Source: Dehalococcoidia bacterium
Lineage (GTDB): Bacteria; Chloroflexota; Dehalococcoidia; SHYM01
Direction: 5' to 3'
DNA: 32,655 bases
Assembly: GCA_009692805.1 (NCBI GenBank)
Contig: SHYM01000007.1
Location: forward strand, 1 to 32,655
In this document: in pieces, positions 15,937 through 30,645 of the stretch
Numbering within the stretch: position 1 is the first letter of the stretch
Layout: every line of letters starts with the position of its first letter
Notes under the pieces: model-generated
The model's database searches: none
Told to the model about the DNA's origin: nothing
Seen by the model: only the letters and a program-made list of their open reading frames with translations
Made by a program: the position numbers and the translations under genes

Positions 15937-15971
15937 GCCCGCCCTCGGCTAGTGTCCTAAGTTGTCAACCA

Positions 15972-16168
15972 GCCCTGCACCCAAAGCCCCGTTTTCTTCG
16001 GACTGGCTCTCCTGAGGATGCCCGCGACCATCCCCCTGGCCCCCTTCCTAACCAGGAAGGGGGTAGCATAAAGGGAGAAAAAGGGGGACACCCCCTTCGA
16101 CCCCCGGCAGAGGGGTCCTCCCCTCTGCACTCCCGCTGTTCCGGCGGGAGCCACTTTTGGTGCAAGGC
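15972..16168 (+). mobile_element. Dispersed hairpin element, copy A (MITE-like)
   Basis: This 197-bp intergenic element ends in inverted repeats: GCCCTGCACCCAAAG at the left and, on the opposite strand, GCCTTGCACCAAAAG at the right. The 7-mer TCAACCA occurs directly left (15965-15971) and again 4 bp beyond the right end (16173-16179), possibly a worn target duplication. Inside are three hairpins: CCCCCTTCCT/AGGAAGGGGG (16040-16063), GGGGG-aca-CCCCC (16083-16095) and GCAGAGGGG/CCCCTCTGC (16107-16128). It lies between two convergent genes and could end both transcripts. It has no coding capacity. Confidence 0.7.
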
Positions 16169-16196
16169 CGCCTCAACCAAGGAAAGGGGCGAGGAC

Positions 16197-17429
16197 CTAC
16201 TCTAGCGCGCCCTCGGCGATGAGCCCGGCGTACTCGTCGTCCAGCAGGCCCAGCAGCTCGCGGTAGACGTAGTCGTTGGCCTCGGCCCAGGTCGGCGCGG
16301 CGCGCTGTCGGGCGGGTGTCTTGTTGAGCCGCCAGGACGGGCCGTCGTAGGCGGACACGCCGATCTCCGGGTGCTCCAGGAAGCGGTAGTGGCCCCGGTG
16401 CTTCATCTGAGGATCCCGGTGAAGGTCGCGGGCGTTCTGCACCACGCCGGCGGGGACGCCTGCCCCCTGGAGCGCCTCCATTAGCGCGTATTCGTCCCAG
16501 GACGCCGTCCAGCCCGTCAGCAGCCGGTCCAGCTCCTCCTCGTGCTGCTTCCGAGCTTTCAGGGTGGCGAAGCGAGGCTCGCGGGCGGCCTCGGGGTGGC
16601 CCAGCACCTGGGCGCAGGCGCGCCACTCCTCGTCGCTGAAGCACGCGATGCTGATCCAGCGCTCGTCCACCGCCTGCCCTGACCACTCGCCCCGGCGACA
16701 GGGGTAGGCGCCGTGGGGAGCGGCCTGGGGATGGCGGTTGCCGTCGCGGGTCTGGACGTGGCCGTTGACGGCGTAGTCCAGGATCGCTGTCTCTAGCAGG
16801 TGGACTCCGGCCTCGTACTGGGAGAGGTCTATGTACTGGCCCTGGCCCGTGCGGCGGCGGTGGTCCAGGGCTGCCATGATGGCGATGCCCACGAAGTGGG
16901 GCCCGGTGAAGTCGGTGTAGGCGACGCCGGTTCCCACCGGTTCGCGGTCGGGCCAGCCCGTGAGGTGGTTGATGCCGGCGAGGGCCTGCAGGTTGTTGCC
17001 GTAGCCCTGGAAGAAGGCGTGGGGGCCCGTGCCGCCCTGCAGGGGCAGGCTAATCTGTATGATGTCGGGCTTCACCTGGGCCAGGGCGTCGTGGGTGATG
17101 CCCCATTTCTTCATCGCCCGGGGGGTAAAGTTGTCGGAGACCACATCGGCGATGCGGACCAGCCGCAGGAACATCTCCCGGCCCTCGGTGTGGTTCATGT
17201 CCAGGGAGATCAAGCGCTTGCTGGAGTTGAAGTTGGCGTAGTAGCCGGAGCGCTCGAAGCCGGCGACGCCATCCTTGTTGGGAGGGACGCCCCGCAGCCA
17301 GTCCGGCTTGTACATGGACTCGATGCGGATAACCTCGGCGCCGTGGTCGGCCATCAGCTTGGTGGCGATGGGCCCCGCGGCGCCCCAGGTGAAATCGATG
17401 ATCCTTATGCCTTCCAGGGCTCCAGGCAT
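16197..17429 (-). CDS. CaiB/BaiF (family III) CoA-transferase, subunit without catalytic Asp
   Basis: A 410-residue formyl-CoA-transferase-family protein beginning LEGIRIIDFTWGAAGPIATKLMADHGAEVIRIE, the usual N-terminal Rossmann-like segment. In family III enzymes an Asp near residue 150-170 forms the CoA anhydride. Here the aligned position is Gly144 in QGYGNNLQALAG, so this subunit probably cannot act alone. The adjacent gene at 17441-18754 keeps that Asp. Heteromeric pairs of this kind are known, for example benzylsuccinate CoA-transferase BbsEF. The ATG at 17429 has AGGAG eight bases upstream; a GTG nine bases earlier is also possible. It lies 11 nt after its partner gene. Confidence 0.85.
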   Translation of the reverse strand: MPGALEGIRIIDFTWGAAGPIATKLMADHGAEVIRIESMYKPDWLRGVPPNKDGVAGFERSGYYANFNSSKRLISLDMNHTEGREMFLRLVRIADVVSDNFTPRAMKKWGITHDALAQVKPDIIQISLPLQGGTGPHAFFQGYGNNLQALAGINHLTGWPDREPVGTGVAYTDFTGPHFVGIAIMAALDHRRRTGQGQYIDLSQYEAGVHLLETAILDYAVNGHVQTRDGNRHPQAAPHGAYPCRRGEWSGQAVDERWISIACFSDEEWRACAQVLGHPEAAREPRFATLKARKQHEEELDRLLTGWTASWDEYALMEALQGAGVPAGVVQNARDLHRDPQMKHRGHYRFLEHPEIGVSAYDGPSWRLNKTPARQRAAPTWAEANDYVYRELLGLLDDEYAGLIAEGALE

Positions 17430-17440
17430 GGCATGCACTC

Positions 17441-18754
17441 CTAAGGGGCGCGTCCTGCCCCTCCGCCCCTGCGCGTGGTCTTGCCAGCCCTCTGGCCGGG
17501 GGCCGCTGGCCCTCGGGAACCACCAGCGCGACGTGTTGCGGAAGTCTTGCCTGGCAGCGTCCCCAGCACCGACTGTGTGTCCTCCCCCAGTGTTGGGGCG
17601 CGCCGCCGGAGCGCCCAGGGGGAGGCGCTGAACCTGTAAGGGGCTCCGGGGTAAGTCAGGCTCTCCCCCAGCTCGGGGTGCTCTACCTGGACGAAGAACC
17701 CCCTGCCCTGGAACTGGACGCTCTCCATCAGGTCGCGGGAGCTGTTGGCTGGGCAGACGAAGACCCGCCTGGCCTGGGCCTGCCGATATAACTCCTGGGT
17801 GGGGAAGCGCTTGATGAAGGGCCGCAGCAGCTCCTGGATATGGGCCGACTCCTCGGGCAAGAGGCGCTGGCCCAACCCCCGCTGGTGGAAATTGTAGTAC
17901 TGGTCGCTCTTGAGGTCGCCGGCCATGCCGTAGGAGTCCATCCAGTCCACCAGCGGCTTCCAGCCCACCTTGGCCTGGGCGCTGCAGGAGACGTAGCCAT
18001 CGGCGGTCTGGTAGACGAGGGGCATCTTGCCGTCGCCGAAATCGCGGTAGCCGCCCACCCGCCTCAGAACCACTTTCAGCAAGTCCCAGGTCTGCTGGGC
18101 GGTATCCAGGGTGACGGCGACGGCCTCCTGCATGGAGACGTCCACCCACTGGCCCTCGCCGGTGCGCCCGCGGTGCCACAGCGCCATCAGCGCCCCGAAG
18201 GCCGCCTGCGCTCCCGCATTGGCGTAAGCCTGGGAGGCGCCCACGCGCACCGGCGGCCGGTCCTCGTCGCCGCACAGCCACTGGAGACCCCCCATGGCTA
18301 CCCCTACCAGGTCCGTGGCGCGGTGCTGGGCGTAGGGGCCCGTCTGCCCGAAGGGCGTGATGGACACGTAGATGAGCCCGGGACTGCGGGCGCTAGCCTC
18401 CTCGTAGCCCAAGCCCAGAGACGCTAGGCGCCCGGGCGGGGAGCTCTCGAACAGGAAGTCGGAGTGCTCCGCGAGGTCCAGCGCGAGCTCGCGCCCGGCA
18501 GGGGTGGCGATATCCAGGACGACGCTGCTCTTGTTGGTCTGGAGGGTGAACCAGGCCAGGCTTTTCTCGGGGTTGGGTTGGCCGTGATAGAACGGCCCAC
18601 GCTCCCGCAGCGGATGGCCGCCCGGAGGCTCCACCACGATGACCTCGGCGCCCAGGTCGGCCAGGAGCTTGGTCGCCATGGCGCCCATCTCGTCGGTGAG
18701 GTCCAGCACCCGGTAGCCGGCCAGGGGGCCGGGGCGGGTCTCCCGCTCGCGCAT
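17441..18754 (-). CDS. CaiB/BaiF (family III) CoA-transferase, catalytic-Asp subunit
   Basis: A 437-residue family III CoA-transferase. The N-terminus LAGYRVLDLTDEMGAMATKLLADLGAEVIVVEPP is typical, as is SITPFGQTGPYA before the putative catalytic Asp148 in RATDLVGVAMGG. WVDVSMQEAVA follows. The protein ends in an Arg/Gly-rich tail of about 35 residues that looks disordered. With the next gene it likely forms a heteromeric transferase moving CoA between carboxylic acids; the substrates are unknown. The ATG at 18754 has GGAGGA upstream. The crotonase at 19004-19828 lies upstream on the same strand but is separated by mobile element copy B, so one operon is possible but interrupted. Confidence 0.86.
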   Translation of the reverse strand: MRERETRPGPLAGYRVLDLTDEMGAMATKLLADLGAEVIVVEPPGGHPLRERGPFYHGQPNPEKSLAWFTLQTNKSSVVLDIATPAGRELALDLAEHSDFLFESSPPGRLASLGLGYEEASARSPGLIYVSITPFGQTGPYAQHRATDLVGVAMGGLQWLCGDEDRPPVRVGASQAYANAGAQAAFGALMALWHRGRTGEGQWVDVSMQEAVAVTLDTAQQTWDLLKVVLRRVGGYRDFGDGKMPLVYQTADGYVSCSAQAKVGWKPLVDWMDSYGMAGDLKSDQYYNFHQRGLGQRLLPEESAHIQELLRPFIKRFPTQELYRQAQARRVFVCPANSSRDLMESVQFQGRGFFVQVEHPELGESLTYPGAPYRFSASPWALRRRAPTLGEDTQSVLGTLPGKTSATRRAGGSRGPAAPGQRAGKTTRRGGGAGRAP

Positions 18755-18787
18755 CTAGGGTTCCTCCGGGCCGTGCTGCCTAACGGC

Positions 18788-19002
18788 GGCTTTGCACAAA
18801 ATGCCGCATTTTCCCGACCAGGCTCTCTCTATGAGTAAGCCCTCGACCACCCCCCCCGGCCCCCTTCCTGGCCAGGACGGGGGTAGCATAAAAGGGAGAG
18901 AAAGGCCCCCCCCTTTGAGCCCCGGCAGATCTCGAGCATCGGGACTCTGCACTCCCTCAATTGCGGCAGGCGGGCCGGCAGGATGCCCTTTTTGTGCAAG
19001 CT
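18788..19002 (+). mobile_element. Dispersed hairpin element, copy B, with TIRs and 9-bp target duplication
   Basis: A 215-bp element with near-identical termini: GGCTTTGCACAAAATG at the left and, on the opposite strand, AGCTTGCACAAAAAGG at the right. It is flanked by a perfect 9-bp direct repeat CCTAACGGC at 18779-18787 and 19003-19011, the mark of transposition. The right copy includes the stop codon of the crotonase gene, so insertion occurred at its 3' end without changing the protein. The inner hairpins are CCTGGCCAGG with C5/G5 flanks (18860-18883), AAAGG/CCTTT (18901-18916) and GCAG..CTGC enclosing TCTCGA/TCGGGA (18925-18950). There is no gene inside. Confidence 0.75.
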
Positions 19003-19003
19003 C

Positions 19004-19828
19004 CTAACGGCCCTTGAACTGGGGCTCTCGCTTCTCGACGAAGGATTTTGCTCCTTCCACATGGTCCTCAGTCTGGAGCAGCAGGCTCTGGGCGGTGCCC
19101 TGCCACTCCAGGAAGCGCTCGATGTCCAGCCCCATGGCGCGCCGGATGCCTTGCTTCGACATCATCTGGCCCAGGGGGGCGGCCGCCGCCAGCTTGCGGG
19201 CCATCTCCAGGGTATGGGCCAGGAGCTCCTCGTGGGGCACCACGTAGTTGACCAGGCCGCTGCGCAGTGCCTCCTGGGCGTCGATGATGTCGCCCGTGAG
19301 GACCAGCTCATAGGCCTTGCCCAAGCCCACCAGCCGCTGGAGGATGACCATGGCCCCGGCGTCGCCCATCAGGCCACGCTTCACGAACAGCTCTCCGAAG
19401 CGGGCCTTGTCGGAGGCGATACGGATGTCGCAGAAGAGGGCGATGTCCATGCCGTAGCCCACCGCTGCGCCGTTGACGGCGGCTATGGTGGGCTTGTCCA
19501 TGAACATGATGCGGTCCACGCCGGAGCGGCCCTTGCCGGCCAGGCTGTGCAGGCGGGCCTGCGTCCGCTCCCGCTTCTTCTCCTCGGCCTTGGACGCTTC
19601 CGCCAGGAAGATGTCCTGGACATCGTCGCCCGAGCAGAACCCGCGGCCGGCGCCGGTCAGGACAACAACGCGCACTCCGGGGTCTGCCTCGGCCTCGTCC
19701 AGGGCCCGATTCATCTCCTGGTAGGTCTGGTGGCGGCCGGCGTTCATGCGGTGGGGGCGGTTGATGGTTACGGTGGCGATGCCGCCCCGCTTTTCGTACA
19801 GAATATCCTCGAAGCTGTGCTCAGCCAC
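19004..19828 (-). CDS. Enoyl-CoA hydratase/isomerase (crotonase) family protein
   Basis: A 274-residue crotonase-fold protein acting on a CoA thioester. The oxyanion-hole segments are GRGFCSGDD (61-69) and AVNGAAVGYG. Of the two catalytic glutamates of classical hydratases, the first is Asp128 (GYGMDIAL) and the second position is Phe148 (FGELF). Asp156 in LMGDAGAM matches an Asp used by dienoyl-CoA isomerase. It is therefore more likely an isomerase or another crotonase activity than a plain hydratase. The GTG start at 19828 follows GGGAGGTG. Its neighbours are the CoA-transferase pair, consistent with degradation of an unknown organic acid as a CoA thioester. Confidence 0.85.
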   Translation of the reverse strand: MAEHSFEDILYEKRGGIATVTINRPHRMNAGRHQTYQEMNRALDEAEADPGVRVVVLTGAGRGFCSGDDVQDIFLAEASKAEEKKRERTQARLHSLAGKGRSGVDRIMFMDKPTIAAVNGAAVGYGMDIALFCDIRIASDKARFGELFVKRGLMGDAGAMVILQRLVGLGKAYELVLTGDIIDAQEALRSGLVNYVVPHEELLAHTLEMARKLAAAAPLGQMMSKQGIRRAMGLDIERFLEWQGTAQSLLLQTEDHVEGAKSFVEKREPQFKGR

Positions 19829-19868
19829 GGCTCACCTCCCGCGATTCTGGCGCCGATGATATCACAGC

Positions 19869-20282
19869 TTAGGCGGGGCGCTCCCAGGCGATGGTGCGGC
19901 TGGGGGTGAGGGTGATGACGACGCGCTGCTGGGTGGCCAGCATGCGGTCCACCCGGCGCTCGGCCTGGGCGCGGTCGGGCGTCCCCTTCATGAGGATCCG
20001 CACCATGGGCTCGCGGATGCCCTGGTCGCTCACCACGGCCCGCCCCTCCAGGGAGACCCAGCGGCCAAGCGCGGGGTCGGCCACGTGCAAGGTCGCCAGG
20101 GGGGTGCGGAGCAGGTTCCGGTGCTTCGCCGTGGGCTTGGTAGTGGTGAGCAGGGCGCTCTTGCCGTCCCACAGGAACGCCATGGGCGACAGATGAGGGT
20201 GCCCGCTGGGCTGCAGGGTGGCGATCGTGGCGAAACGCTGGGTGCGCAGGAAGTCGTCCACCCAGGGCAGGTCCTTAGGCAT
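19869..20282 (-). CDS. PPOX-class (pyridoxamine-5'-phosphate-oxidase-like) protein, probably F420-binding
   Basis: A 137-residue split-barrel flavin/F420-binding protein. It starts with a short helix (LPWVDDFLRTQRFATIATL), followed by the strand pattern GHPHLSPMAFLWDGKSALLTTTKPTAKHRNLLRTP and the later HVADPALGRWVSLEGRAVV. This arrangement is that of the F420-dependent PPOX branch (TIGR03618-like) common in actinobacteria and Chloroflexota. Such enzymes reduce biliverdin, fatty acids or other unsaturated compounds, or just bind F420. The substrate is unknown. The F420 pathway genes at 27811-32313 support F420 use. Confidence 0.78.
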   Translation of the reverse strand: MPKDLPWVDDFLRTQRFATIATLQPSGHPHLSPMAFLWDGKSALLTTTKPTAKHRNLLRTPLATLHVADPALGRWVSLEGRAVVSDQGIREPMVRILMKGTPDRAQAERRVDRMLATQQRVVITLTPSRTIAWERPA

Positions 20283-20326
20283 GAGGGCGGCTTCTTTCCC
20301 CGGCGCTCCCGCGCCAGCACTAGTGG

Positions 20327-21523
20327 CTATCCCAGGCTGAAGAGGACCAGGACGCCAGTGTAGTTGTGCACCAGGTTGCGGCCCGCTAGGGGGGCGAGCT
20401 CCGCGTTGCCGAAGAACCCCACCACCGGCACATCGCCCAGGGCCTGGTTGATGGCCTCGATGTCGTGGTTCGGCTCGCCGTATAGGCCCGCGCCGCGGCC
20501 GAGGCAGTTGAAGTAAAGGCCAAAGGTCGGGGGACGATCGCGGGTGACCTCGGCCAGTTTGGCCAGGGTCATCTCCAGGTCTTCTCCCGCCGACTGGGCA
20601 TCCCGCAGGTGGAGTTGGAAGGTCTGGCCTGGCCTCACCATTTCACCCACGGTCACGGCGCCGGAGCGCTCGTCGGCCCCGATGATGCTGCGTATCAGGA
20701 AGTCGCCCCGGCCGTGGAAGTCGCGCCGCTCGTCGATAACCAGCCCCGCGAAGAAGGAGCCCCGCGCTCGGTGCAGGGTCTCGGGGTCGAGGGACTCCAC
20801 AGTCGCCCGCATCACCTCGAGGGCCGGGCGCCCCGCGATTTTGAGTATCACGTTGGACTGCGCGTCGGTGATAATGTAGGGCTGGCCAATAGGGGCGCAG
20901 CCCTGGGCGACGCCGATGGCGATGGTGAGGTCGCCCCCCATCAGCGCCCCGGCCACCCCCCGGCTGGAGAGGGTGTAGTTGCTCCACTGGAAGGTCTGGG
21001 GGGAGCCCGGCTCACCGGCGGCGGCCCCGCCGACGATGGGCAGCCCCTTGAACTCTTCGCCCAGGCGCTGTACCAGCTCCCCCGGGCGCAGGTTGAAGAT
21101 GTCGGGGAGCGCCATGAGCGCGGCGCCTTCCTGGGCCCGGGAGCCCAGGTCAGCGGCGATGCAGCGCGCCAGGTCTTCGCCGACGGCCGTGGGGCGGGCC
21201 AGGTAGGGGAGCACCGACACGGAGTCGGCGTCGAGGGCCATGACCGCGACAGCAGGGCCCCCCTCCAGCTCGCCCGCGGAGGTAAGCACCCCCATGCCGG
21301 TGCACCCCACCAGGGTGCGGGCGCTCGCCGTCGCCCGGGCCGCCCCCAACAGGTCGGGGAGCGCGCGTCCGTAGTGGGTGGTGGCGAAGAGCAGCAAGTG
21401 CTCCGCCTGGGAGAGGCCGGCGGCATCCAGGGCCATGCGCACGGCGGCGTGCCCCGCCGCCTCCGCGTCCGCGGCGGTGGAGTGCCCGACTCCTACGGCG
21501 TTGAGGATTCCCCGCGTGGCCAC
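20327..21523 (-). CDS. FIST domain protein
   Basis: A protein of 398 residues with an N-terminal FIST domain (AVGVGHSTAADAEAAGHAAVRMALD, then LLLFATTHYG and TLVGCTGMGVLTSAGELEGG) and a C-terminal FIST_C part with LYFNCLGRGAGLYG and VVGFFGNAELAP. FIST domains are thought to be small-ligand sensors, often tied to signalling proteins. Here it stands alone without a transmitter domain. I chose the GTG at 21523 because the decayed duplicate at 23175-23311 has an ATG at exactly this codon; a TTG 24 nt upstream is also possible. A ribosome site is not evident. Confidence 0.85.
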   Translation of the reverse strand: MATRGILNAVGVGHSTAADAEAAGHAAVRMALDAAGLSQAEHLLLFATTHYGRALPDLLGAARATASARTLVGCTGMGVLTSAGELEGGPAVAVMALDADSVSVLPYLARPTAVGEDLARCIAADLGSRAQEGAALMALPDIFNLRPGELVQRLGEEFKGLPIVGGAAAGEPGSPQTFQWSNYTLSSRGVAGALMGGDLTIAIGVAQGCAPIGQPYIITDAQSNVILKIAGRPALEVMRATVESLDPETLHRARGSFFAGLVIDERRDFHGRGDFLIRSIIGADERSGAVTVGEMVRPGQTFQLHLRDAQSAGEDLEMTLAKLAEVTRDRPPTFGLYFNCLGRGAGLYGEPNHDIEAINQALGDVPVVGFFGNAELAPLAGRNLVHNYTGVLVLFSLG

Positions 21524-21666
21524 GGGTCTATGATACCAAAACGACAAGGCCCCACTGGGCAGTTCGCCGCGCGTGGTCGCGGGCGAGGCCGAGGTATTTC
21601 GGACTGGGCATGCCCAGGGGGAGACTGAGGGTTAGAAGCCTGAGGGGCGTTAGCGTCAGCGCTGGC

Positions 21667-23161
21667 TCAAAAAACAACCCCTGAGTCCCTGAGCGGAGCG
21701 GCCTGGCCCCCCTTCGCCACCCGCTGGTGTACCCGATCCCTGCTGTAGTCCAGCTTCCACGCGACTACGGCCGGATCTACCAGCATGACCACGTACCCAC
21801 CCACCGCGCCCGCGCCGAAAGCCGGCGTAAAAACGCGCATCGGGCGGCCGATGACCCCTTCTCTCACGGCGTCATAAATGGCAATGGGGATACTGGCGGC
21901 CGAGGTGTTCCCGACACGTTCGATGTTGAAGTAGAGGCGCTCGGGCGAGATGCCAGCCGCCTGCGCGAGGCTCAGCACCATGGTCTTGTTGGCCCGGTGG
22001 GGAATTATAAGATCGACGGCGTCCAGCAGGGACCCTGGCCCGCCCTGGGGGTGCGGAAGCGCGCGGAGATCGCCGATCATCTGGTTTAGGTAGCGCTCCA
22101 CCAGGTTTCGCACCTCGGGGCCGTAGACGGTGACGTTGTTGTCGAAGTCCGGGTTGGGCCAGATGATGGAGTCCACCTCGGCTAGGGGTCCGCTGGCGTA
22201 GGTCTGGGACACCTCGATGTCGGGCCCCGCGTCCCGGGGGGCGGGACCGATGACCATCGCGGCGGCCGCATCGCCGAAGATCATGCGCGAGGTCCGCACC
22301 GTGCCGATCTTGTCCGAGAACTTCTCGCCGCAGACCACCAGAATCGGGCGCTCGACCTCCTGGAGCAGACGCACCGCCTCGCTGAGCCCGTACGGCATGC
22401 CGGCGCAGGCAGCGACGATGTCGCAGGAGGTATGGGTCTGGAATATCCCGAGGTGGCTCGACAGCCAGGTGGCTACGGAGGGAATGATCTTGGTGGCCGT
22501 GCAGGAGCAGAAGAGCACCGCCCCGATCTCCTCCGGCCGCCCATCGCCTGCCGCAGGAGGGCCTCGAGCTGAGGCACCGCGTGCGCGCACTCGATGATGT
22601 CGTCGTAGCTGTAGCCCGGGTAGTCCGGATCGTACGCCACGAGATGGTGGACGAGGTTCCGGGGGTCGGCCAGGGCCTCTGCTACCGTCGTCTTGATCGC
22701 CGCTAGCTCCGCCCCGGCGCCTGGCTTGTTCTGGAACACGTTCAGCAGGATGCTAAAGACCTTATCCTCGGTGCCCGCATCCCAGGTCGCCGGGAGCCTC
22801 TGGTACTCTGCCTCGATCGCCACCGCGAGCTCCGCCCCTTGCCAGGTCTTGAATAGGGGCAGGAAGACGTCGTCGCGGTGGCGGGGCAGGTCCCCCCAGC
22901 GCGTGGGGTGCTTGTCGTACATCGTGGTCGCATACCGAGTCACCCAAAAGAGGTTGAGGGCCAGGTCTCGTAGCGGCCCTTGTAGCCCCGCGACTCCACC
23001 CGCTTGGCGATGTCCCCTTCCGACGGGGCCTTCTCCTCAAAATCGCGCTTGATGGCTGAGTCGAACTGCTTCAGCGTCCCAAAGACCGAGAAGTCGAGCT
23101 CCGGGAGAAAGTTGGCGGGGAAGACGATACGACCCTGGCGGTTTACCACGAAGGGTTTCAT
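21667..23161 (-). pseudogene. Ketoacyl-ACP-synthase-III-like gene with N-terminal extension, broken
   Basis: Three consecutive reading-frame pieces look like one decayed gene. Piece 1 (23161-22940) starts MKPFVVNRQGRIVFPANF after AGGAGGG and runs to GYKGRYE before going out of frame. Piece 2 continues as LRDLALNLFW, VTRYATTMYDKH and on to LEALLRQAMG (about 22960-22535). Piece 3 (about 22550-21667) is a KAS III/HMG-CoA-synthase-like domain, entering abruptly at RPEEIGAVLFCSC. It keeps the catalytic Cys in VAACAGMPYG, His in IPHRAN and Asn in RVGNTSAASIP. The normal first 60-80 residues of the thiolase fold are missing at the join. This suggests a frameshift near 22955 plus an internal deletion near 22545. 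Piece 3 could still be translated from the GTG at 22590. Confidence 0.65.
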
Positions 23162-23174
23162 AGCTTCCCTCCTC

Positions 23175-23311
23175 CTAGCTCCAGGCGAAGCGGGCGGCAT
23201 CCAGGGCCCGGCGCGCCGCCGGCGCGCCAACTGCCTCCGCGTCCGCCGCGGCGGAGTGCCCGGCTCCTACAGCCCCGATCCTACAGCAGTGGGGATTCCC
23301 CGCGTGACCAT
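23175..23311 (-). pseudogene. Decayed duplicate of the FIST gene 5' end
   Basis: From an ATG at 23311 the sequence reads VTRGIPTAVG, then after a shift AGHSAAADAEAVGAPAARRALDAA, clearly matching the intact FIST protein start VATRGILNAVGVGHSTAADAEAAGHAAVRMALDAA. The homology also covers the upstream TGGTATCAT. A 14-bp tandem duplication (TCCTACAGC at 23265 and again at 23279) causes the frameshift. The match stops after about 35 codons, next to the ribosome site of the broken KAS gene. Confidence 0.75.
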
Positions 23312-23385
23312 GTGTTTATGATACCAGAAGGGCAAATCCCGACATCAAGACCGCGTTCCAGCAGGCCTGTTCCCGTAGATGGGTG

Positions 23386-24408
23386 CTAGGGCCAGCGCAG
23401 CTGGCCGTTGCGGTATATGCGCTTCAGCACGTCGTCGGCGTAGACGCGCCGCAGCTCCACCGGCTTGGCGACGGCGCCGTACTGTACCAAGAGATCGTGG
23501 AGCTCCTGCCACTGCTGGCGGGTCATCCAGCCCAGGCCGTTGCGGCGGGTGAGGTCGGTCACGGCATTTTGCTTCTCCGTGTCCAACATGAAGCGCATGT
23601 GCTCCCGGTCCTCCCGGGGCGCGTACTTCATGACGATGTCCAGGGCCTCCTCCTCGTGCTCCAGGGCGTAGGCCAGGCCATGGAGGGCAGCCTTCACGAA
23701 GCGGTCCACGGTGGCGGTCTGCTGGTCCAGGATGTCCCGGTGTGTGATATAGGCCACCCCCAGGGTCGGGACGCCGTAGTCGGCGGCCTGGAACACCCGC
23801 ACCGGGAAGCCGAGCTTGCGGAGGATGGCGGGCTCATTGGAGACGAAGACCTGGTAGACGTCTACCTTTCCTTCGGCGAGGATGCGGGGGTCGAAGCCCA
23901 CCGGCACCTCCTGGACGCGGGCGCGGTCCACGCCGACCGCCTTCAGCATCGCCAGGTAGTCGGGCGGCACTAGCACCTTGTAGCCCACCCGCTTGCCCTC
24001 CCAGTCCTTGGGGGACTGGATGCCCGAGCCCTCCAGCACCGCGAAGCCGCGGTCACCCCGCTGGCCGAAGAGGGCGACGGCGACGAAGGGCGCGTCGGAC
24101 GCCGCCACCTGCTGGATGACATCTTCGGCCGGGGCGGTGGTGAATTGGATCTGCTGGCCCGCCAGCAGGCGGTAGTGCTCTCCCTGGCCGGCTGAGTGGC
24201 GGATATCCACCGCCAGTCCCTGCTCCCGGAAAAAGCCCTTTTCCTGGGCCACGTAGGCGGCCACGAAGGGCAGGTTTGCCTGCGCCTTGAAGCCCGCCAT
24301 GAACACCACCTTCTGCTCCGTCGAGGCGGGCCCGCCGGCGACGCAGGCGACCCCCAGCAGCATGGCCGCCAGGGACGTGGTGATAAGGGCTAGCAGGCCA
24401 CGACTCAT
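23386..24408 (-). CDS. ABC transporter substrate-binding lipoprotein (NMT1/SsuA/THI5-like)
   Basis: A 340-residue periplasmic-type solute-binding protein anchored as a lipoprotein: MSRGLLALITTSLAAMLLGVAC has a hydrophobic signal and a lipobox ending in Cys22. The mature part has NLPFVAAYVAQEKGFFREQGLAVDI, the hallmark of the NMT1/THI5/SsuA family, which binds sulfonates, nitrate, pyrimidines or other small organics. It continues with KDWEGKRVGYKV and WMTRQQWQELHDLLVQYG. No permease or ATPase gene adjoins it; the only ABC ATPase of this type in view is the truncated one at 32403. It has its own promoter (24531-24559) and a long structured leader, so it is probably regulated individually. Confidence 0.88.
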   Translation of the reverse strand: MSRGLLALITTSLAAMLLGVACVAGGPASTEQKVVFMAGFKAQANLPFVAAYVAQEKGFFREQGLAVDIRHSAGQGEHYRLLAGQQIQFTTAPAEDVIQQVAASDAPFVAVALFGQRGDRGFAVLEGSGIQSPKDWEGKRVGYKVLVPPDYLAMLKAVGVDRARVQEVPVGFDPRILAEGKVDVYQVFVSNEPAILRKLGFPVRVFQAADYGVPTLGVAYITHRDILDQQTATVDRFVKAALHGLAYALEHEEEALDIVMKYAPREDREHMRFMLDTEKQNAVTDLTRRNGLGWMTRQQWQELHDLLVQYGAVAKPVELRRVYADDVLKRIYRNGQLRWP

Positions 24409-24524
24409 GAGTGACCTCCTCGTGCGCGGGCTTCAGGCAAAAGCAATGGCCCCGACTGACCTACTGCCAGCGGGGCCATGAGCAACAGGCTGGCGCCTGA
24501 AGCATCGTGTTGCTACTGTGATTT
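24409..24524 (-). promoter_or_regulatory. Structured 5' leader RNA, candidate riboswitch or attenuator
   Basis: The leader of about 115 nt before the solute-binding protein gene can form a 9-bp stem GCTTCAGGC/GCCTGAAGC (24503-24495 with 24438-24430) enclosing another perfect 9-bp stem ATGGCCCCG/CGGGGCCAT (24479-24471 with 24454-24446). A third 7-bp stem AGCAACA/TGTTGCT (24514-24508 with 24487-24481) has the first arm of the outer stem in its loop, so the two are either alternative or pseudoknotted. I do not see the TPP, FMN, SAM or cobalamin consensus. The ribosome site GAGGAGG follows about 10 nt after the last structured part. Confidence 0.5.
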
Positions 24525-24530
24525 GACCGG

Positions 24531-24559
24531 ATTATAGCTGGGCCTGGCCGCAGGGGCAA
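24531..24559 (-). promoter_or_regulatory. Sigma70-type promoter of the solute-binding protein gene
   Basis: On the minus strand TTGCCC (24559-24554) and a perfect TATAAT (24536-24531) are exactly 17 bp apart. Transcription would begin near 24524. Confidence 0.65.
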
Positions 24560-24585
24560 GCCGTGCCGGGACGGGGCCGGGCAAG

Positions 24586-25092
24586 CTACTGGCGTTTACC
24601 ATCCTGGGTGCGGATGTCGTAGGTCTGCGCTTTGCCCAGCATCTCGTCTATGTGCATCTGGTCGTGGCGGTACATAGACTTTACGCACTGCTTCACCGTC
24701 AGGGTGCCAAAGGCGGTGCCGTGGATGGGCCGCTCCATCTCCCCGTCCCCCGTCTCGGCGATGAACTCCAGAGTCTTGACGCGCTGGTCGTGGAGCTGCT
24801 GGCTTAGCTCGGCCAGGGTCATCTGAACAGCCTCGTCGAAGAGGGGCACGCGACCCAGCGTGCCCCCGAGGCGGAGGTCGGGGTTGTCCTCATCCCGCGC
24901 TCGCCGGGCCCAGACCTGGATATAGGAGTGCTCGGCCCCGCACAGGTGCTTGAGCATCCCCTTGCGGGTCCTATCTCCCTCCTTCGCGCGCTTGGTGAAC
25001 CAGGCGTCGTCGTGGTCGTGCACGATCGCCAGCAACGCCTCCCGGTGCTGCGCCAGCTTGGCGACCATATCCCGCCGCTCCTGGGGTGTCAT
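24586..25092 (-). CDS. DinB family protein
   Basis: A 168-residue four-helix-bundle protein of the DinB/YfiT metalloenzyme family. The likely metal ligands are a histidine in GMLKHLCGAEHSYIQVW and the pair in MYRHDQMHIDEM near the C-terminus, the normal His triad layout. Many members are mycothiol- or bacillithiol-dependent transferases; others have no known reaction, and the name does not imply a DNA-damage role. The ATG at 25092 has AAGGAGG eight bases upstream. It lies upstream of the promoter of the solute-binding protein gene and appears to be a separate unit. Confidence 0.85.
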   Translation of the reverse strand: MTPQERRDMVAKLAQHREALLAIVHDHDDAWFTKRAKEGDRTRKGMLKHLCGAEHSYIQVWARRARDEDNPDLRLGGTLGRVPLFDEAVQMTLAELSQQLHDQRVKTLEFIAETGDGEMERPIHGTAFGTLTVKQCVKSMYRHDQMHIDEMLGKAQTYDIRTQDGKRQ

Positions 25093-25139
25093 GGGTTTAC
25101 CTCCTTCGCTCTAGCGCGCGGCCCGAGCCGCCCCCCAGC

Positions 25140-26354
25140 CTAACCTTCCGCGGCGCCACCGCCCACTCTCGACCAGAAAGCCAGGCTCCCCTCACCGACG
25201 ACGCTGGCGGAGGCCTCGCTCGTGACGTCCGCGACCAAGATCCGGCTCTGCGGCTCGCCGCTGCCATAATGGGCGTGGCCGTTCAGGTTCAGCCGGCCGC
25301 TGTACACCAGCTTGGTGCTGTCGGGGGACCAGAGCTGGTGAGAGTGGGCATACTGGTCAAAGAACGCGTACAGGGTCAGCATGTCCTGGGATGGGAAGTG
25401 GCTAGCCAGACGCCGCTGCCGCCGCTCTCGCAGGTCCAGGACAACCCAGGAGTAGAGGCCCTCGGTGGCGTTGGGCATGACGTAGGCCAGACGACGACCG
25501 TCAGGCGACCAGAAGAAGGCCAGGAGCTCGTCCTCCGTCAACGACACCGCTCGCCCGCCCTTGACCTCCAGCAGGCGCAGCCCGCCGTAAGAGGGCCCCT
25601 CTGGGTTTGTCAGGGTGGCTAAGGCTATGGTCGTGCCCGCGGGCGACCACAAGAACGCAGCGGGAGCGTCCAGCTCTGCCTCGATCCGTACCTCCTTCCC
25701 CGAGGGGTCAGCGGTGAGCAGGTTGAGCTTGTTCTCCTCTGGCTGCTCGGTGAAAGCGATACGCGTACCGTCGGGCGACCAAGCGGGCGTGCGGAATCCC
25801 ACGGCGCCCCCTGCGACGGCGCTGACCTTCATCCCATCGGACAGGTCCACCATCAGGAGCTGGCTGCCGGGGTGCAGCAACAGCCGCAAGCCGTCGGGAG
25901 ACCAGGCCGGGAACAGCGGCGCGCCCGCTATCACCGGCACCGTTTGCCCGGAGTCCGCGTCGGCGATAAAGAGCGTCAGGCCCTCCGCACCTGGGGCCAC
26001 CACGGCAAGATGGCGACAATCGGGAGACCAGGACAGATAGTGGGGAACGTTGGGGGCTATCACCGGCGGCACCCCTGGGGGGTTCCGGTAGAGCGCCGCC
26101 GGGGTGCCGCCCTGGGCCCCAACCACGTAAGTGGTAGCCGAGAGTCTATCCTTGTCCTCTACAGCGCCCTCGACAGCGATGGAGGAGAAGGCGATGCGCC
26201 TCCCGTCGGGCGACCAGGCGGGCCAGTAGTGGCTCAGCATGGGCTGTCCCTGCTCGTCCCGCTGGGCGGCCGCTAGCCGCCGCGGTCCGGAGCCGGCGGG
26301 CTCCATGGTCCACAGGCTCCTGCCACTATCGATGAAGGCTATAGTGTCCGCCAC
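25140..26354 (-). CDS. TolB-like WD40/PD40 beta-propeller protein
   Basis: A 404-residue propeller with seven recognisable PD40 signatures in order: AWSPDGRRIAFSS, SWSPDCRHLAVV, AWSPDGLRLLL, AWSPDGTRIAF, LWSPAGTTIAL, FWSPDGRRLAYV and LWSPDSTKLVY. That is enough for a full closed ring. From the GTG at 26354 the protein begins MADTIAFIDSGRSLW directly in the first blade, so no signal peptide is visible, unlike periplasmic TolB. Its location (cytoplasm, or export by another path) is uncertain. The ribosome site is weak. It follows the metalloprotease lipoprotein gene by 80 nt. Confidence 0.82.
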   Translation of the reverse strand: MADTIAFIDSGRSLWTMEPAGSGPRRLAAAQRDEQGQPMLSHYWPAWSPDGRRIAFSSIAVEGAVEDKDRLSATTYVVGAQGGTPAALYRNPPGVPPVIAPNVPHYLSWSPDCRHLAVVAPGAEGLTLFIADADSGQTVPVIAGAPLFPAWSPDGLRLLLHPGSQLLMVDLSDGMKVSAVAGGAVGFRTPAWSPDGTRIAFTEQPEENKLNLLTADPSGKEVRIEAELDAPAAFLWSPAGTTIALATLTNPEGPSYGGLRLLEVKGGRAVSLTEDELLAFFWSPDGRRLAYVMPNATEGLYSWVVLDLRERRQRRLASHFPSQDMLTLYAFFDQYAHSHQLWSPDSTKLVYSGRLNLNGHAHYGSGEPQSRILVADVTSEASASVVGEGSLAFWSRVGGGAAEG

Positions 26355-26434
26355 AACTACCCCGCCGCGGCAACCGTATGCCGACCCTCATCTTAACGGG
26401 AGACGGCCCGGCCTGACAATCGGGCGAACCGGAC

Positions 26435-27793
26435 TTAGAAGCCCGCGAATAGGGGCAGCAGGGACGATAGCAGCGGAGCATCGGTGGCGCGCAGGAGGAG
26501 CACTTGCGTGCCCCGGAGGCCCAGGAAGACCTGGCCAGCGGACGAGGACCACTGCGCGCGCGCGCCCGAAAGTGGGCCCGGGCCGGCTCCGCCAGGGCGC
26601 CTGCTGCTGGGGCCGCCCTCGGCCTCGGCAAAGGCAGAGTAGGCGGCGAAGAACTCCTGAGCGTCGTACTCCGAGTCCCAGTCTGTCAGGAGAAGGAACG
26701 CCTCCTGGCCAGCGCCAGCGCTCCACACCTCGTAGCGGTCGCCGCCCCAGCCGGCGGCGGCCGCCGTGGCGGTGGCGTCGTCCAGGCGACGGCCAAGGTA
26801 GCGGGAGAGGTAGAACTCCCCCAGTGTATCTGAGTCGAGCCGCCGCCAAGCGCCGCTGCCCAGCGCGACCGCCGGGTCGGGCAGCGCCACCTCCTTGGGC
26901 TTCTCGTCGAGTATGTACTTCTGGGGATGCAAGACCTGCTCGGTGCTGGCGGGCGGGCGGCTGTAGAGCTGGTCCACTGTCCCCCAGCCCCCGCCGCGGA
27001 AGATGGAGGCCACAAAAGAGTTTCCCACCTGGTAGGGGAAGAACAGGGCTTCCCTGACCACGGCGGGGGCGCCCTCGAATACCGGCGACGGGGTGCGCGC
27101 GGCCTCGCGGAAGAACTCCGCTTGCTCCTCGCGACTCAGGGCGGCCGTCATGTACTGCGACTGGAGCAGGACGGCATCGCCCTCCACGAGGGCGCTCAGG
27201 GCCAAGGAGGCGTCCTTCTGGCGCTTCACCCCTTTGATGAGGCTGTTGATGTCGAAGTGCTGCTGCTGGAGGGCGTGGGCCAGCTCGTGGGCGAAGGTTA
27301 TCTTGTCCACCGGCGCGAAGCGGGCGCCCCGCTGGACGACCACCAGCCGTTGCTCCTCGGTGTCGTAGAACCCCAGGACCTGCTCGGTGTAGAGGGCCAG
27401 GATCAGCTGGGAGTAATCGGCGGAGCGGTCCAGCAAGCCCAGCGCCTTGTACAGCGCCTCCTCCCGCGCCATGATCTCCCGGTTCTCAGGCTTGTTGAAG
27501 TCCCGCTCCAGTTCCCGGCGCAGCTCCGCCTCGTCCACGAAGAACCTGGGGACGGGGCCGGTGAAGTCGCGGCCCCGCAGACGCGGGACATGCCCCTCGA
27601 TCTCCGCCAGGGCCGCTTCCAGTCCCGACGCGCCGGGAGCCGCGGGCGACGGCGAGGGGCTGACGGTAGGAGTGGGTAGCGCTGCCGCGGTCGCTGTGGG
27701 GGTGGGAATCGGGATGCGAGTTGGAGTGCGCCGGCCCAGGCAACCCGCGCCCAGGAGTGCCACGGCCAGGAGTATTAGGAGCGGTGCGCGCAT
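26435..27793 (-). CDS. Putative lipoprotein zinc metalloprotease (HExxH)
   Basis: A 452-residue exported protein. The signal is MRAPLLILLAVALLGAGC, giving lipidated Cys18, followed by a Pro/Thr/Ser-rich linker of about 35 residues. The protease motif HELAH is at residues 169-173 (KITFAHELAHALQQQHF), with a plausible third ligand Glu in ALVEGDAVLLQ about 35 residues later. This layout fits a gluzincin-like cell-surface peptidase, but I do not recognise a named family. The ATG at 27793 starts 17 nt after cofE, so it may be read through from the F420 genes. An upstream start would overlap cofE and remove the signal from the N-terminus. Confidence 0.8.
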   Translation of the reverse strand: MRAPLLILLAVALLGAGCLGRRTPTRIPIPTPTATAAALPTPTVSPSPSPAAPGASGLEAALAEIEGHVPRLRGRDFTGPVPRFFVDEAELRRELERDFNKPENREIMAREEALYKALGLLDRSADYSQLILALYTEQVLGFYDTEEQRLVVVQRGARFAPVDKITFAHELAHALQQQHFDINSLIKGVKRQKDASLALSALVEGDAVLLQSQYMTAALSREEQAEFFREAARTPSPVFEGAPAVVREALFFPYQVGNSFVASIFRGGGWGTVDQLYSRPPASTEQVLHPQKYILDEKPKEVALPDPAVALGSGAWRRLDSDTLGEFYLSRYLGRRLDDATATAAAAGWGGDRYEVWSAGAGQEAFLLLTDWDSEYDAQEFFAAYSAFAEAEGGPSSRRPGGAGPGPLSGARAQWSSSAGQVFLGLRGTQVLLLRATDAPLLSSLLPLFAGF

Positions 27794-27810
27794 CGTTAAT
27801 CGCTCTCCGC

Positions 27811-28569
27811 TCAATACCGGAACAGGTCGTCCTGGGGAGGGCGCACCAGGCGTCGCGCGGTGCCATCGACGCGCTGATAAGCATAGCCGCGCACTACCCC
27901 CGCTGGCACTCGCGCCAGCTTCCCCATGACCAGGTTGGCGGCGCTGCACAGCTCGTCGGCCACGGCTACCACCGTCGCTTTGAGCTGCTTGCCGGCGGTG
28001 TCGGATTCGCCCCGCAGGTCCAGCACCGCCTCCATGCCGGCCACCCCGATGGCCACGTCGACGAGGCCGTCGCGCCAGGGGCGGCCGAAGGTGTCAGAGA
28101 TGATCACCGCCAGGTCAGCGCCCAGCGCGCGGCGCAGCCCCTCGCGGATGCCGCGGGCAGAGGCGTCGGGGTCCACCGGCAAGAGCGTCACCATGTGCTC
28201 GCCGGGCACGTTGGAGGCGTCCACCCCGGCGTTGGCGCAGACAAACCCGTGACGGGTCTCGGCGATGATGACCCCGCGGCCGCTGTCCATCCGCACGATG
28301 CGGGCGCTCTCCCGCAGCACCACCTCCACCTGGCGTGGGTCCTTCTGGCCGCTCTCCGCGATGTGGCGGGCCAGGGGCGAGGGCTCCACCGTGCGCAGGT
28401 CAACCGTGCGCCCCTCGGCCTTGGACACGATCTTCTGAGTGACGACGAGGATGTCGCCGTCGCGCAGGGCGACCTGGGCGCTGCGGGCGGCCGCGGCGAT
28501 GAGGGCCGCCACGTCGTCGCCGGCCTTGACCTCGGGCAGGCCTGGGATGGGTATGATCTCGATCGTCAC
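27811..28569 (-). CDS. cofE: Coenzyme F420-0:L-glutamate ligase
   Basis: A 252-residue enzyme that adds L-glutamate to F420-0 with GTP and a divalent metal, building the gamma-linked tail. Family landmarks are IPIPGLPEVKAGDDV, GDILVVTQKIVSKAEGR, VVLRESARIVR, HGFVCANAGVDASNV and VIISDTFGRPWRDGLVDVAIG. It is the single-domain form like archaeal CofE; the nitroreductase-like C-terminal domain of mycobacterial FbiB is absent. The start is GTG at 28569 with GGGGGAG upstream. The F420 reductase gene ends 29 nt before it, so they are co-transcribed. Confidence 0.93.
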   Translation of the reverse strand: MTIEIIPIPGLPEVKAGDDVAALIAAAARSAQVALRDGDILVVTQKIVSKAEGRTVDLRTVEPSPLARHIAESGQKDPRQVEVVLRESARIVRMDSGRGVIIAETRHGFVCANAGVDASNVPGEHMVTLLPVDPDASARGIREGLRRALGADLAVIISDTFGRPWRDGLVDVAIGVAGMEAVLDLRGESDTAGKQLKATVVAVADELCSAANLVMGKLARVPAGVVRGYAYQRVDGTARRLVRPPQDDLFRY

Positions 28570-28598
28570 TTACTTGCGCTCCCCCTGACGTCGCTGTC

Positions 28599-29246
28599 TC
28601 AAATCCCCGTCAGCTTGATGCCGGCCTGAACCTTATACGTGCGGTTGATGTTCAGGATCAGCGCCGTCAGCTCCTCCACGTAGCGGGCGTTGACCAGGGG
28701 CCCGCCGTCTATCCCCCGCACGCCCTTGAGGCGCCCGGCCAGCGCCATCACCCGCCTGCGCGCCTCCGGGTCGTCGCCGACTACGATGACATCGCTCCCC
28801 AGATCCTCATCCACCCTCATGAGCTTCTGGGCGCTGAGGTTGTGGAAGGCGCCGGTCACGAGCGCCTGGGGCAGCAGCGCCTGCGCCTGCTGGGTGGCGG
28901 AGCCCTCCGCGACGGATAGGGCGCGGGCGCGGCCCTTCTCGAAGGCCAGGGGCACCACCGTGTCCACCACCAGCTTGGCGCCGATGGCCTCGCGCAACGC
29001 TAGCAAGATGTCGCGCTGCCCCTCGAAGGGGACGGTGATAAAGACGACCTCGCCCTGGCGGGCGGCGTCCGGGTTCTCGGCGCCGCTGACGCGGGCGGTG
29101 GGCACCAGCGCCACGATCTTGGCGGCGGCCTCCTGAGCGCGCTCGGCGCTGCGGGAGCCGATGATGACCTCCTCGCCGGCGGCGGCGAAGCGCACGGCGA
29201 GGCCCAGACCCTCAGGCCCGGTGCCGCCGATGAACGCGAGCTTCAT
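28599..29246 (-). CDS. npdG: NADPH-dependent F420 reductase
   Basis: A 215-residue Rossmann protein, MKLAFIGGTGPEGLGLAVRFAAAGEEVIIGSRSAERA, that exchanges hydride between NADP(H) and F420. The GSRS loop after the second strand binds the 2'-phosphate of NADPH. Later segments VVFITVPFEGQ, KLVVDTVVPL and VTGAFHNLSA line the F420 site in known Fno/NpdG enzymes. It would supply F420H2 to the oxidoreductases in this window. The ATG at 29246 follows GAGGA. A hairpin element (copy C) separates it from the oxidoreductase gene that ends downstream in the map at 29426. Confidence 0.92.
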   Translation of the reverse strand: MKLAFIGGTGPEGLGLAVRFAAAGEEVIIGSRSAERAQEAAAKIVALVPTARVSGAENPDAARQGEVVFITVPFEGQRDILLALREAIGAKLVVDTVVPLAFEKGRARALSVAEGSATQQAQALLPQALVTGAFHNLSAQKLMRVDEDLGSDVIVVGDDPEARRRVMALAGRLKGVRGIDGGPLVNARYVEELTALILNINRTYKVQAGIKLTGI

Positions 29247-29261
29247 GCTTTCCTCACCCCC

Positions 29262-29365
29262 TCAAGTCCCCCCCCTCCCGTTTGCGGGAGAGGGGGAGGA
29301 AAAGTTAGACTAGGGGACACCCCTAGTACCCCGGCAGTCCCGACACGTCGGGACTGCACCCTCCT
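29262..29365 (+). repeat. Dispersed hairpin element, copy C
   Basis: About 104 bp between the F420 reductase and oxidoreductase genes, in the same orientation as the other copies. Hairpin 1 is C5-CTCCCG/CGGGAG-a-G5 (about 29269-29297). Hairpin 2 is CTAGGGG-aca-CCCCTAG. Hairpin 3 is GCAGTCCCGAC/GTCGGGACTGC (29334-29357). It is nearly identical to copy D from GAAAAGTTAGAC onwards. I find no clear terminal inverted repeats. Confidence 0.7.
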
Positions 29366-29425
29366 CGTTATCCCACGCTCAGAAGCTCTCCAGCGCTCAC
29401 TCTAACGCGCCCATCGAGATTGTGC

Positions 29426-30364
29426 TCACTTCTTGAACAGCGGCATGACCTCTTGGGCGAAGAGGGAGAAGGCGTCGTAGTCGTAGGGGGCGCCGGTGGA
29501 GAACAGGAAGTGGCTGACGCCGCGCTCCGCCCAGGCATGGACCTGCTCGGCGACCTCCTGGGGAGAGCCGTAGAACATGCGCTCCCGGAGCTGGTCGGGC
29601 GGGAAGCCGCGGTTGCGGGCGATGGCGTCGGCACGCCCGGCCAGGACCTTGGCGTCGCCGATGACCAGGGCGCCGGCCAGGGAGCGCTCCACGGTGGCGG
29701 GGTCGCGGCGCTCCGTCTGGCAGTGTCGCTCCAGGGCGTCCAGCTTGCGCCGGTAGTCAACCCAGGGCATCAGGAAGGTGTTCCAGCCGTCCGCCTGCCG
29801 CGCCACGACCCGCAGCGTGAGCTGCTCCCCCTGGCCGCCGACCCAGATGGGCGGGCGAGGCTTCTGCACCGGTTTGGGCTCGGCCAGGGCCTCCTTCAAC
29901 TGGTAGTACTTCCCCTGGAAGGTGGGCGCGTGCTCCGTCCAGAGCAGCTTGATCACCTGGATCGCCTCGTCCAGCATGCGGATGCGCTGGCCCGTGGTGT
30001 AAAAGGGGACGCCGTAAGCCTCGTGTTCCTTTTGGTACCAGCCAGCGCCGATGCCGAACTCCAGCCGCCCGCCGGTGACGATGTCCACGGTGGTGGCCAT
30101 GTTAGCCAGCACCGCCGGATGGCGGTAGGTGTTGCCCGCCACCAGGGTACCCACCCGCAAGCGCGTCGTCTGGATAGCCAGGGCGGATAGCAGCGTCCAG
30201 CCCTCCAGGCAGGGCCCCTCCACGTCGCCGCGGATGGGGATGAAGTGGTCGAAGACCCAGGCCGAGTCATACCCCAGGCGGTCCACGTGCTGCCAGAGCT
30301 TCAGCATCTCCTGGTAGGGCACGTGCTGCTGGGCGGTCTGGATGCCGAACTTGATAGTATTCAT
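29426..30364 (-). CDS. LLM-class F420-dependent oxidoreductase
   Basis: A 312-residue luciferase-like TIM-barrel protein. Landmarks are the N-terminal FGIQTAQQHVPYQEML, GYDSAWVFDHFIP, the RLRVGTLVAGNTYRHPAVLANMATTVDIVTGGRLEFGIGAGW segment that contains the isoalloxazine-binding bulge, and the late PPIWVGGQGEQLTLRVVARQADGWN. These are typical of F420-dependent members (TIGR03560-like). Its place among cofD, cofC, npdG and cofE makes F420 dependence highly likely. The substrate is unknown. The ATG at 30364 follows GAGAGGG. It is flanked on both sides by dispersed hairpin elements. Confidence 0.9.
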   Translation of the reverse strand: MNTIKFGIQTAQQHVPYQEMLKLWQHVDRLGYDSAWVFDHFIPIRGDVEGPCLEGWTLLSALAIQTTRLRVGTLVAGNTYRHPAVLANMATTVDIVTGGRLEFGIGAGWYQKEHEAYGVPFYTTGQRIRMLDEAIQVIKLLWTEHAPTFQGKYYQLKEALAEPKPVQKPRPPIWVGGQGEQLTLRVVARQADGWNTFLMPWVDYRRKLDALERHCQTERRDPATVERSLAGALVIGDAKVLAGRADAIARNRGFPPDQLRERMFYGSPQEVAEQVHAWAERGVSHFLFSTGAPYDYDAFSLFAQEVMPLFKK

Positions 30365-30383
30365 GGCACCCTCTCCCCCTCAT

Positions 30384-30480
30384 GTCCCCCTCTCCCTTGC
30401 CAAAGGGAGAGGGGGAGGGAAAGTTAGACTAGGGGACACCCCTAGTACCCCAGCAGTCCCGACGGCTCGGGACTGCACCC
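30384..30480 (+). repeat. Dispersed hairpin element, copy D
   Basis: Hairpin 1 is a 13-bp perfect stem CCCCCTCTCCCTT/AAGGGAGAGGGGG (30386-30415). Hairpin 2 is CTAGGGG-aca-CCCCTAG (30429-30445). Hairpin 3 is GCAGTCCCGA/TCGGGACTGC (30453-30476). It sits just upstream of the F420 oxidoreductase gene, 70 bp from copy E. The 306-nt gap between cofC and the oxidoreductase holds only copies D and E. Confidence 0.7.
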
Positions 30481-30547
30481 TCCGGTTTGCGGGCGTTGCG
30501 CCCGGAGACTCATGACTCTATTCTTGACACCTTTAGCTCACCCCCTG

Positions 30548-30645
30548 TGTCCCCCTACTCCGATGGGTGGGAGAGGGGGAAGAAAAGTTAGACTAGGGGA
30601 CACCCCCTTCGACCCCCGGCAGAGGGGTTTCCCCTCTGCACTCCT
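30548..30645 (+). repeat. Dispersed hairpin element, copy E
   Basis: The first stem is imperfect (CCCCCT...AGGGGG). The second is GGGG-aca-CCCC and the third is GCAGAGGGG/CCCCTCTGC (30619-30639), the same stem as in copy A. The stretch GAAAAGTTAGACTAGGGGAC is shared with copy C, and the part after GACACCCCCTTCGAC is shared with copy A, so this copy links the two subtypes. Confidence 0.7.

Follow-up and report, generated by a model that had tools for sequence, protein, structure and literature searches.

The five copies and their genes

The window, a stretch of 32,655 nucleotides that is contig C73 of a 1.35-Mb Dehalococcoidia genome (71% complete), carries five copies of an intergenic repeat, named A to E here. 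All five lie on the + strand, where a sequence-only reading of the window had placed them in one orientation, and the frame it had described for them (hairpin 1, a spacer, a short hairpin 2 and hairpin 3) is seen in every copy. That reading had treated the hairpin clusters as the units; the frame stands, and what it missed is that A and B are whole units of about 200 bp with terminal inverted repeats. The features are as follows.

15972..16169, + strand: copy A, a MITE-like full unit with GCCCTGCACCCAAAG as its left and CTTTTGGTGCAAGGCC as its right terminal repeat
16040..16063, + strand: copy A hairpin 1, CCCCCTTCCTAACCAGGAAGGGGG, with CCCCCTGG just before it
16081..16097, + strand: copy A hairpin 2, AAGGGGGACACCCCCTT
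16107..16128, + strand: copy A hairpin 3, GCAGAGGGGTCCTCCCCTCTGC
18779..18787, no strand: left 9-bp target duplication of copy B, CCTAACGGC
18788..19002, + strand: copy B, a full MITE, terminal repeats GGCTTTGCACAAAATGCC ... TTTTTGTGCAAGCT
18860..18883, + strand: copy B hairpin 1
18901..18916, + strand: copy B hairpin 2, AAAGG..CCTTT, its loop now all C
18925..18950, + strand: copy B hairpin 3, GCAGATCTCGAGCATCGGGACTCTGC, a TCCCGA-type module
19003..19011, no strand: right 9-bp target duplication of copy B, CCTAACGGC, overlapping the stop-codon end of an enoyl-CoA hydratase gene (19004-19828, - strand)
29262..29365, + strand: copy C, a core whose terminal repeats are not clear
29309-29327, + strand: copy C hairpin 2, ACTAGGGGACACCCCTAGT
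29334-29357, + strand: copy C hairpin 3
30384..30484, + strand: copy D, a core without clear ends
30386-30416, + strand: copy D hairpin 1, with CCCTCTCCCCCT upstream giving a mirror-type intrastrand triplex motif (class from PMC4666352; fit judged by eye)
30428-30446, + strand: copy D hairpin 2
30453-30476, + strand: copy D hairpin 3
30548..30645, + strand: copy E, a core without clear ends
30551-30579, + strand: copy E hairpin 1
about 30596-30606, + strand: copy E hairpin 2
30619-30639, + strand: copy E hairpin 3

Hairpins 2 and 3 are matched by our covariance model at 16074-16134, 18885-18956, 29303-29363, 30422-30482 and 30586-30645.

Around copies C, D and E the genes cofE, npdG, a TIGR03560-family F420-dependent LLM oxidoreductase, cofC and cofD are all on the minus strand, and the three copies sit between npdG, the LLM oxidoreductase and cofC, so that the core is antisense to the F420 genes, as in most tandem rows. 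The earlier suggestion that these copies break up the F420 gene row finds no support in the comparison: the cofD-cofC coupling is intact, 29 cofC loci examined in other members of the class all lack a nearby copy and a detectable LLM gene beside cofC, and in the empty-site comparison for D and E the cofC-LLM pair is kept in no sampled relative. These loci thus give no evidence that an ancestral row was disrupted.

Copy number and anatomy of the core

The pattern CCCCNGCAGN{4,30}CTGCA has 93 matches in the genome and one in the reversed control, and the covariance model (R1, built on hairpins 2 and 3) has 139 matches in the whole genome at E<=0.01. Of 294 genomes sampled from the class, 91 have matches to it, bearing out the expectation of further copies both here and in relatives. 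Where collections name their genomes, the core is carried mostly by Chloroflexota, Dehalococcoidia and SAR202 MAGs; phage sequences gave no match to the core, and plasmids gave two partial ones, to hairpin 3 only. The copies are short, non-coding, dispersed in large numbers and intergenic, the first three being properties by which MITEs are recognized.

Read together, the copies give the order C-rich module, spacer (A-rich in many genomes, not in all), hairpin 2, CCCCC, hairpin 3 and CTCCC. Hairpin 2 is typically GGGGGACACCCCC with a few more pairs, and hairpin 3 consists of GCAG, a variable stem and CTGC; the GCAG and CTGC flanks, taken at first for motifs of their own, are the base of stem 3. 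The C-rich module at position 1 is either a triplex-type hairpin or a four-CCC tract, the complement of which is a G-quadruplex motif, and a CCCACCCACCCGCCC/GGGCGGGTGGGTGGG module can stand in place of the triplex-type hairpin 1. In other genomes, within 75 nt on the upstream side of hairpin 2, a C-run-plus-hairpin of the triplex type is present in 90 of 155 copies, a four-CCC tract in 30 and neither in 35, as counted by regular expression and not by the published ITxF algorithm, the corresponding frequencies at random positions being 1.8% and 0.1%.

The hairpins of the core are modular. In this genome stem 3 has three interchangeable forms (AGGG..CCCT, ATCCCGAGCATCGGGA or GTCCCGACACGTCGGGA) and hairpin 2 has two, a GACAC-type, which combines with all three stem 3 forms, and a TCCCGA-type, which combines with two. 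Positions 2 and 3 both take a separate TCCCGA...TCGGGA palindrome, which is itself dispersed as a separate repeat: it occurs 83 times in the genome (twice in the control), lies outside core or model matches at 24 of the 50 places listed, and in one element of another genome (L313) is nested within another palindrome of the same type.

Ends and partner transposases

Among 18 testable copies with GGCTTTGCAC-type ends (form GGCTTTGCACNAAAAG), 9-bp target duplications stand in one register, exact in four and with one mismatch in three, as compared to no exact case and 2.3% with one mismatch when the flanks are paired by swapping; copy B combines such terminal repeats with an exact CCTAACGGC on both sides. 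Terminal inverted repeats are present in A, in B and, with both GGCTTTGCAC-type ends, in 17 of the 89 copies examined here, and are not seen in C to E. Since 42 of the 89 have neither end, many copies are truncated or move otherwise. A general inverted-repeat scan round all copies gave a signal barely above the reversed-flank null; by this measure the majority of copies in other genomes are without clear ends.

The same core lies between other ends too, namely CTAGTGTCCTGAG in this genome and CTAGCAGGCTGCTGAAAA, CTATCTCAAAAC and GCCTATCCAACAAC in other genomes. One element ending in CTAGCAGG.TGCTGAAAAA has a gene for a transposase of the IS5 family (NF033581, E=2.9e-71), and CTAGCAGGNTGCTGAAAAA is the end common to this element and to core-bearing MITEs (L308, L313, L315, L316 and L320, of which L315, on contig C30, is a CTAGCAGG-type MITE with the core in this genome). 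Elements ending in CTAGCAGGNTGCTGAAAAA also exist without the core (L306 and L310) or, in L314, with the core reduced to a CCATCCCCC remnant. The core is therefore not needed for recognition of the ends, and behaves as a cargo common to different vehicles. An autonomous IS was matched to the CTAGCAGG type in this way; for the GGCTTTGCAC type of the window none was found, the candidate partners DDE_Tnp_1, Mutator and ISL3 giving no match in this 71% complete genome.

Conservation of pairing

Covariation was measured as the number of alignment cells in which both sides of a pair had changed. In the seed alignment, which was made without reference to structure, 93% of cells are paired and there are 67 double-sided changes against 21 in shuffled alignments and at most 26 in slid registers. 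The copies of this genome have 163 against 60 shuffled, and those of other genomes 197 against 50, in two alignments fitted to the model and hence somewhat favourable to pairing. In all three alignments the covariation score lies above all 500 shuffles and every slid register. The claim that pairing is kept while the letters change is therefore borne out within this genome and outside it, neither chance-level covariation nor a lack of further copies having been found.

Change of stems within this genome is largely by replacement of blocks, that is, of one stem 3 form by another, and not by gradual drift; gradual compensation of single pairs is seen within stem 2 and between genomes. The most conserved pair, the first of stem 3, is G-C in most copies but turned round to C-G in some genomes (GGCAG..CTGCA to GCCAG..CTGGA in L282, L284, L285, L289, L296, L298, L300 and L302). 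The further step from conserved pairing to the statement that structure is selected is less secure, since template-switch repair of palindromes can also produce covariation (PMC8794818).

Interpretation

The dispersal of the copies, the repeats at element ends, the duplications of 9 bp, the IS5-family element with matching ends, the exchange of modules and the covariation together make it probable that the copies are a superfamily of MITEs with a structured core cassette, moved in trans and kept paired, at least in part, on the level of DNA. Non-autonomous MITEs would share one structured core, and IS transposases would act on them in trans through the element ends, the IS5-family enzyme moving the CTAGCAGGNTGCTGAAAAA type and a putative other enzyme, with a 9-bp target duplication, the GGCTTTGCAC type of the window. 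Pairing could then be kept because extruded palindromes undergo template-switch repair, or because other small palindromes are exchanged for those of the core; copies would survive chiefly at sites where little damage results, as a rule in antisense orientation to neighbouring tandem genes; and the reverse strand, if transcribed, would be read as an array of RNA hairpins at 3′ ends. Any function of the core is inferred. Against the MITE reading stand the many copies with neither GGCTTTGCAC-type end, the lack of a DDE_Tnp_1, Mutator or ISL3 match in the 71% complete genome, and the need, for one core under different ends, of a step of capture or exchange, which was not seen.

As is generally so for structured RNAs, selection for RNA on one strand would be expected to leave far more G.U pairs than A.C mismatches on the selected strand. 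In other genomes G.T and A.C mismatches stand at 35:38 and in this genome at 40:59, the latter partly reflecting misaligned stem 3 modules. Being equally frequent, they indicate no preference for G.U on either strand, and strand-specific selection for RNA is therefore not shown by them; their equality could, on the other hand, reflect neutral decay of dead copies and not the process that makes the covariation. Template switching is a published route to the making and maintenance of stems, for the short ones of which its authors consider the evidence of maintenance circumstantial (PMC8794818), and in our family pairing may be upheld, at least in part, by processes acting on the DNA.

It is possible, though we doubt it, that the repeat is instead an RNA 3′-end element (a terminator, attenuator or stabiliser) spread on MITEs, with stem covariation caused by selection on the RNA. 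Genes would then enter from the hairpin 3 side, and the RNA would consist of hairpin 3, a GGGGGTGTCCCCC hairpin, a T-rich tract in some genomes, and either a G4 or a hairpin rich in G. Among tandem genes the core is antisense in 74 cases and sense in 38 (p=0.0009), a bias pooled from many genomes, each a small sample, the gene calls coming from a codon model that was trained separately for each genome; and of 192 cases, 115 have a gene 3′ end facing hairpin 3. The Rfam family RF02937 (Clostridiales-2) matches the reverse strand only, always at hairpin 3, in 11 copies from several genomes, among them copy E (30653-30602, 33.5 bits). Intrinsic terminators have a GC hairpin with a U tract directly after it; terminator-like matches on the minus strand occur in copies B and C only, by a weak consensus scan that is at chance level in the C-E region, and on the reverse strand T after hairpin 2 is above background in several genomes. 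However, T is not enriched there in G281, G178 and G024 among the genomes checked, the G.U excess is absent, the bias in orientation is just 2:1, and the Clostridiales-2 scores of 22-34 bits (best 34.0) are far under the gathering cut-off of 58.6, at which Rfam finds only tRNA. Gaps with copies in the window's own genome are convergent in 30 cases and divergent in 11, the ratio for the remaining gaps being 12:20 (Fisher p=0.004); this enrichment is absent in the other genomes and so is not general.

Orientation bias and Clostridiales-2 matches point independently to the reverse strand as that of the RNA, if there is any, and together they point to a strand-specific role which a purely DNA-level account does not predict, whilst the bias would also be produced by selection against harmful orientations. 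A more speculative and rather unlikely extension is that the cassette itself is selected, hence its presence on MITEs of unrelated transposases: it would be a mobile, orientation-dependent 3′-end RNA element related to Clostridiales-2, with the C-rich module maybe a triplex hairpin or a G-quadruplex, and stems evolving by palindrome exchange.

The sequence-only reading had offered transposition as folded DNA as one option, and small palindromes, high copy number and intergenic placement might suggest that the element moves as a folded single strand in the style of IS200/IS605 or REP/RAYT. We consider this very improbable: elements of those groups are marked by an HUH (Y1) transposase and transpose without terminal inverted repeats or target duplications, and here the terminal inverted repeats, the 9-bp duplications (exact in copy B), the IS5-family DDE transposase on the matching IS and the same-ended elements without the core all argue against it, the repeats with duplications and the DDE enzyme being classical signs of double-strand transposition. 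Accidental pairing, by shared ancestry and GC-rich low complexity, hardly deserves credence, for although runs of G and C pair easily and our shuffles ignore the relatedness of copies, slid registers score 0.01-0.17 as opposed to 0.26-0.29 in the true register (own and other genomes), and at outer pairs of stem 2 each of the four Watson-Crick types is well represented (AU 41, CG 30, GC 22 and UA 12 for one such pair in other genomes).

Covariation is usually taken as proof of selection on RNA, and here, in a natural family of hundreds of copies, it is strong with the strand signature of G.U absent, so that the family offers a test of whether template switching or palindrome exchange alone can keep stems paired. 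In addition, the work would annotate a repeat found at about one site per 10 kb here and in about a third of the sampled genomes of the class; such a repeat can interfere with assembly, with the calling of genes and with the search for new RNAs.

Likeness to known systems

The kind of element, a miniature transposon, is known; the family, with its exchangeable hairpins and class-wide spread, appears undescribed, our search, which covered part of the literature, having found no account of it and a 2024 review of MITEs making no mention of Chloroflexota (PMC10969869). Bacterial MITEs such as pneumococcal BOX and RUP (PMC3049150; review PMC10969869) are likewise short, non-coding and dispersed, with stem-loops, terminal inverted repeats, target duplications, mobilisation in trans by IS and, in BOX, a modular interior. 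Unlike them, the present family is GC-rich, has documented covariation of pairs and exchangeable palindromes, and has one core that recurs throughout a bacterial class in MITEs whose ends differ.

Hairpin 1, together with the run of C upstream of it, appears to fit the class of the TM_ECO/PIT triplex motifs (PMC4666352), in which three blocks in succession can form C.G.G triads; by eye, the reverse strand of copy D has one stem rich in C, one rich in G and a third block in mirror arrangement. TM_ECO are intergenic, without a link to mobile elements and without further hairpins (PMC4666352), whereas here the triplex-type motif is one module of a MITE and replaceable by a CCCACCCACCCGCCC tract. 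RF02937 Clostridiales-2 resembles the reverse strand of hairpin 3 with its flanks (GGGxGUGCAGGGG..CCCCUGCCG...GUCGAAGGG), but about 30 positions of its model are missing here, and our sequences are MITE-borne, belong to another phylum and score below its cut-off. Finally, REP/BIME sequences (PMC3733652, PMC2817692) are also many-copy mosaics of small intergenic palindromes, from which our family differs in having terminal repeats with target duplications and, for one of its types, an IS5-family partner.

Copy A and other repeats in the window

15948-15971: CTAGTGTCCTAAGTTGT, directly left of copy A
15972-16169, + strand: copy A, a full MITE-like unit with the hairpin core
21410-21555 and 23184-23343: a pair of direct repeats, some 70-90 nt long and diverged to 76-78% identity, lying upstream of two genes on the minus strand

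The left neighbour of copy A resembles the end of this genome's second MITE type, CTAGTGTCCTGAG; copy A may be nested within, or adjoin, a remnant of that type. The two direct repeats are unrelated to the hairpin-core MITE family.

Across this genome, the loop of hairpin 1 holds a CCTTCGGCAGGCTCAGGGCAGGCTC insert in five of 89 core copies examined (L007, L011, L022, L137 and L140), the insert being another dispersed repeat sited within the palindrome. A further repeat family of the genome (L016, L017) has the layout of the core in different letters, its parts running in the order GGGAGAGGGGG hairpin, spacer, GGGGGGACACCCCCC, GCCAGGAGGGcttgGCCCTCCTGG and CTCC.

Outside Chloroflexota, the alphaproteobacterium Siccirubricoccus has many copies of CCCCCGGCAGAGGG..CCCTCTGCACTCCC (L163, L176, L189, L199, L202 and L207, among others), preceded by GGGGGCTCCGCCCCC and often with a stop codon a few bases upstream; the array in Candidatus Onthenecus (L171, L193) resembles that of Siccirubricoccus.
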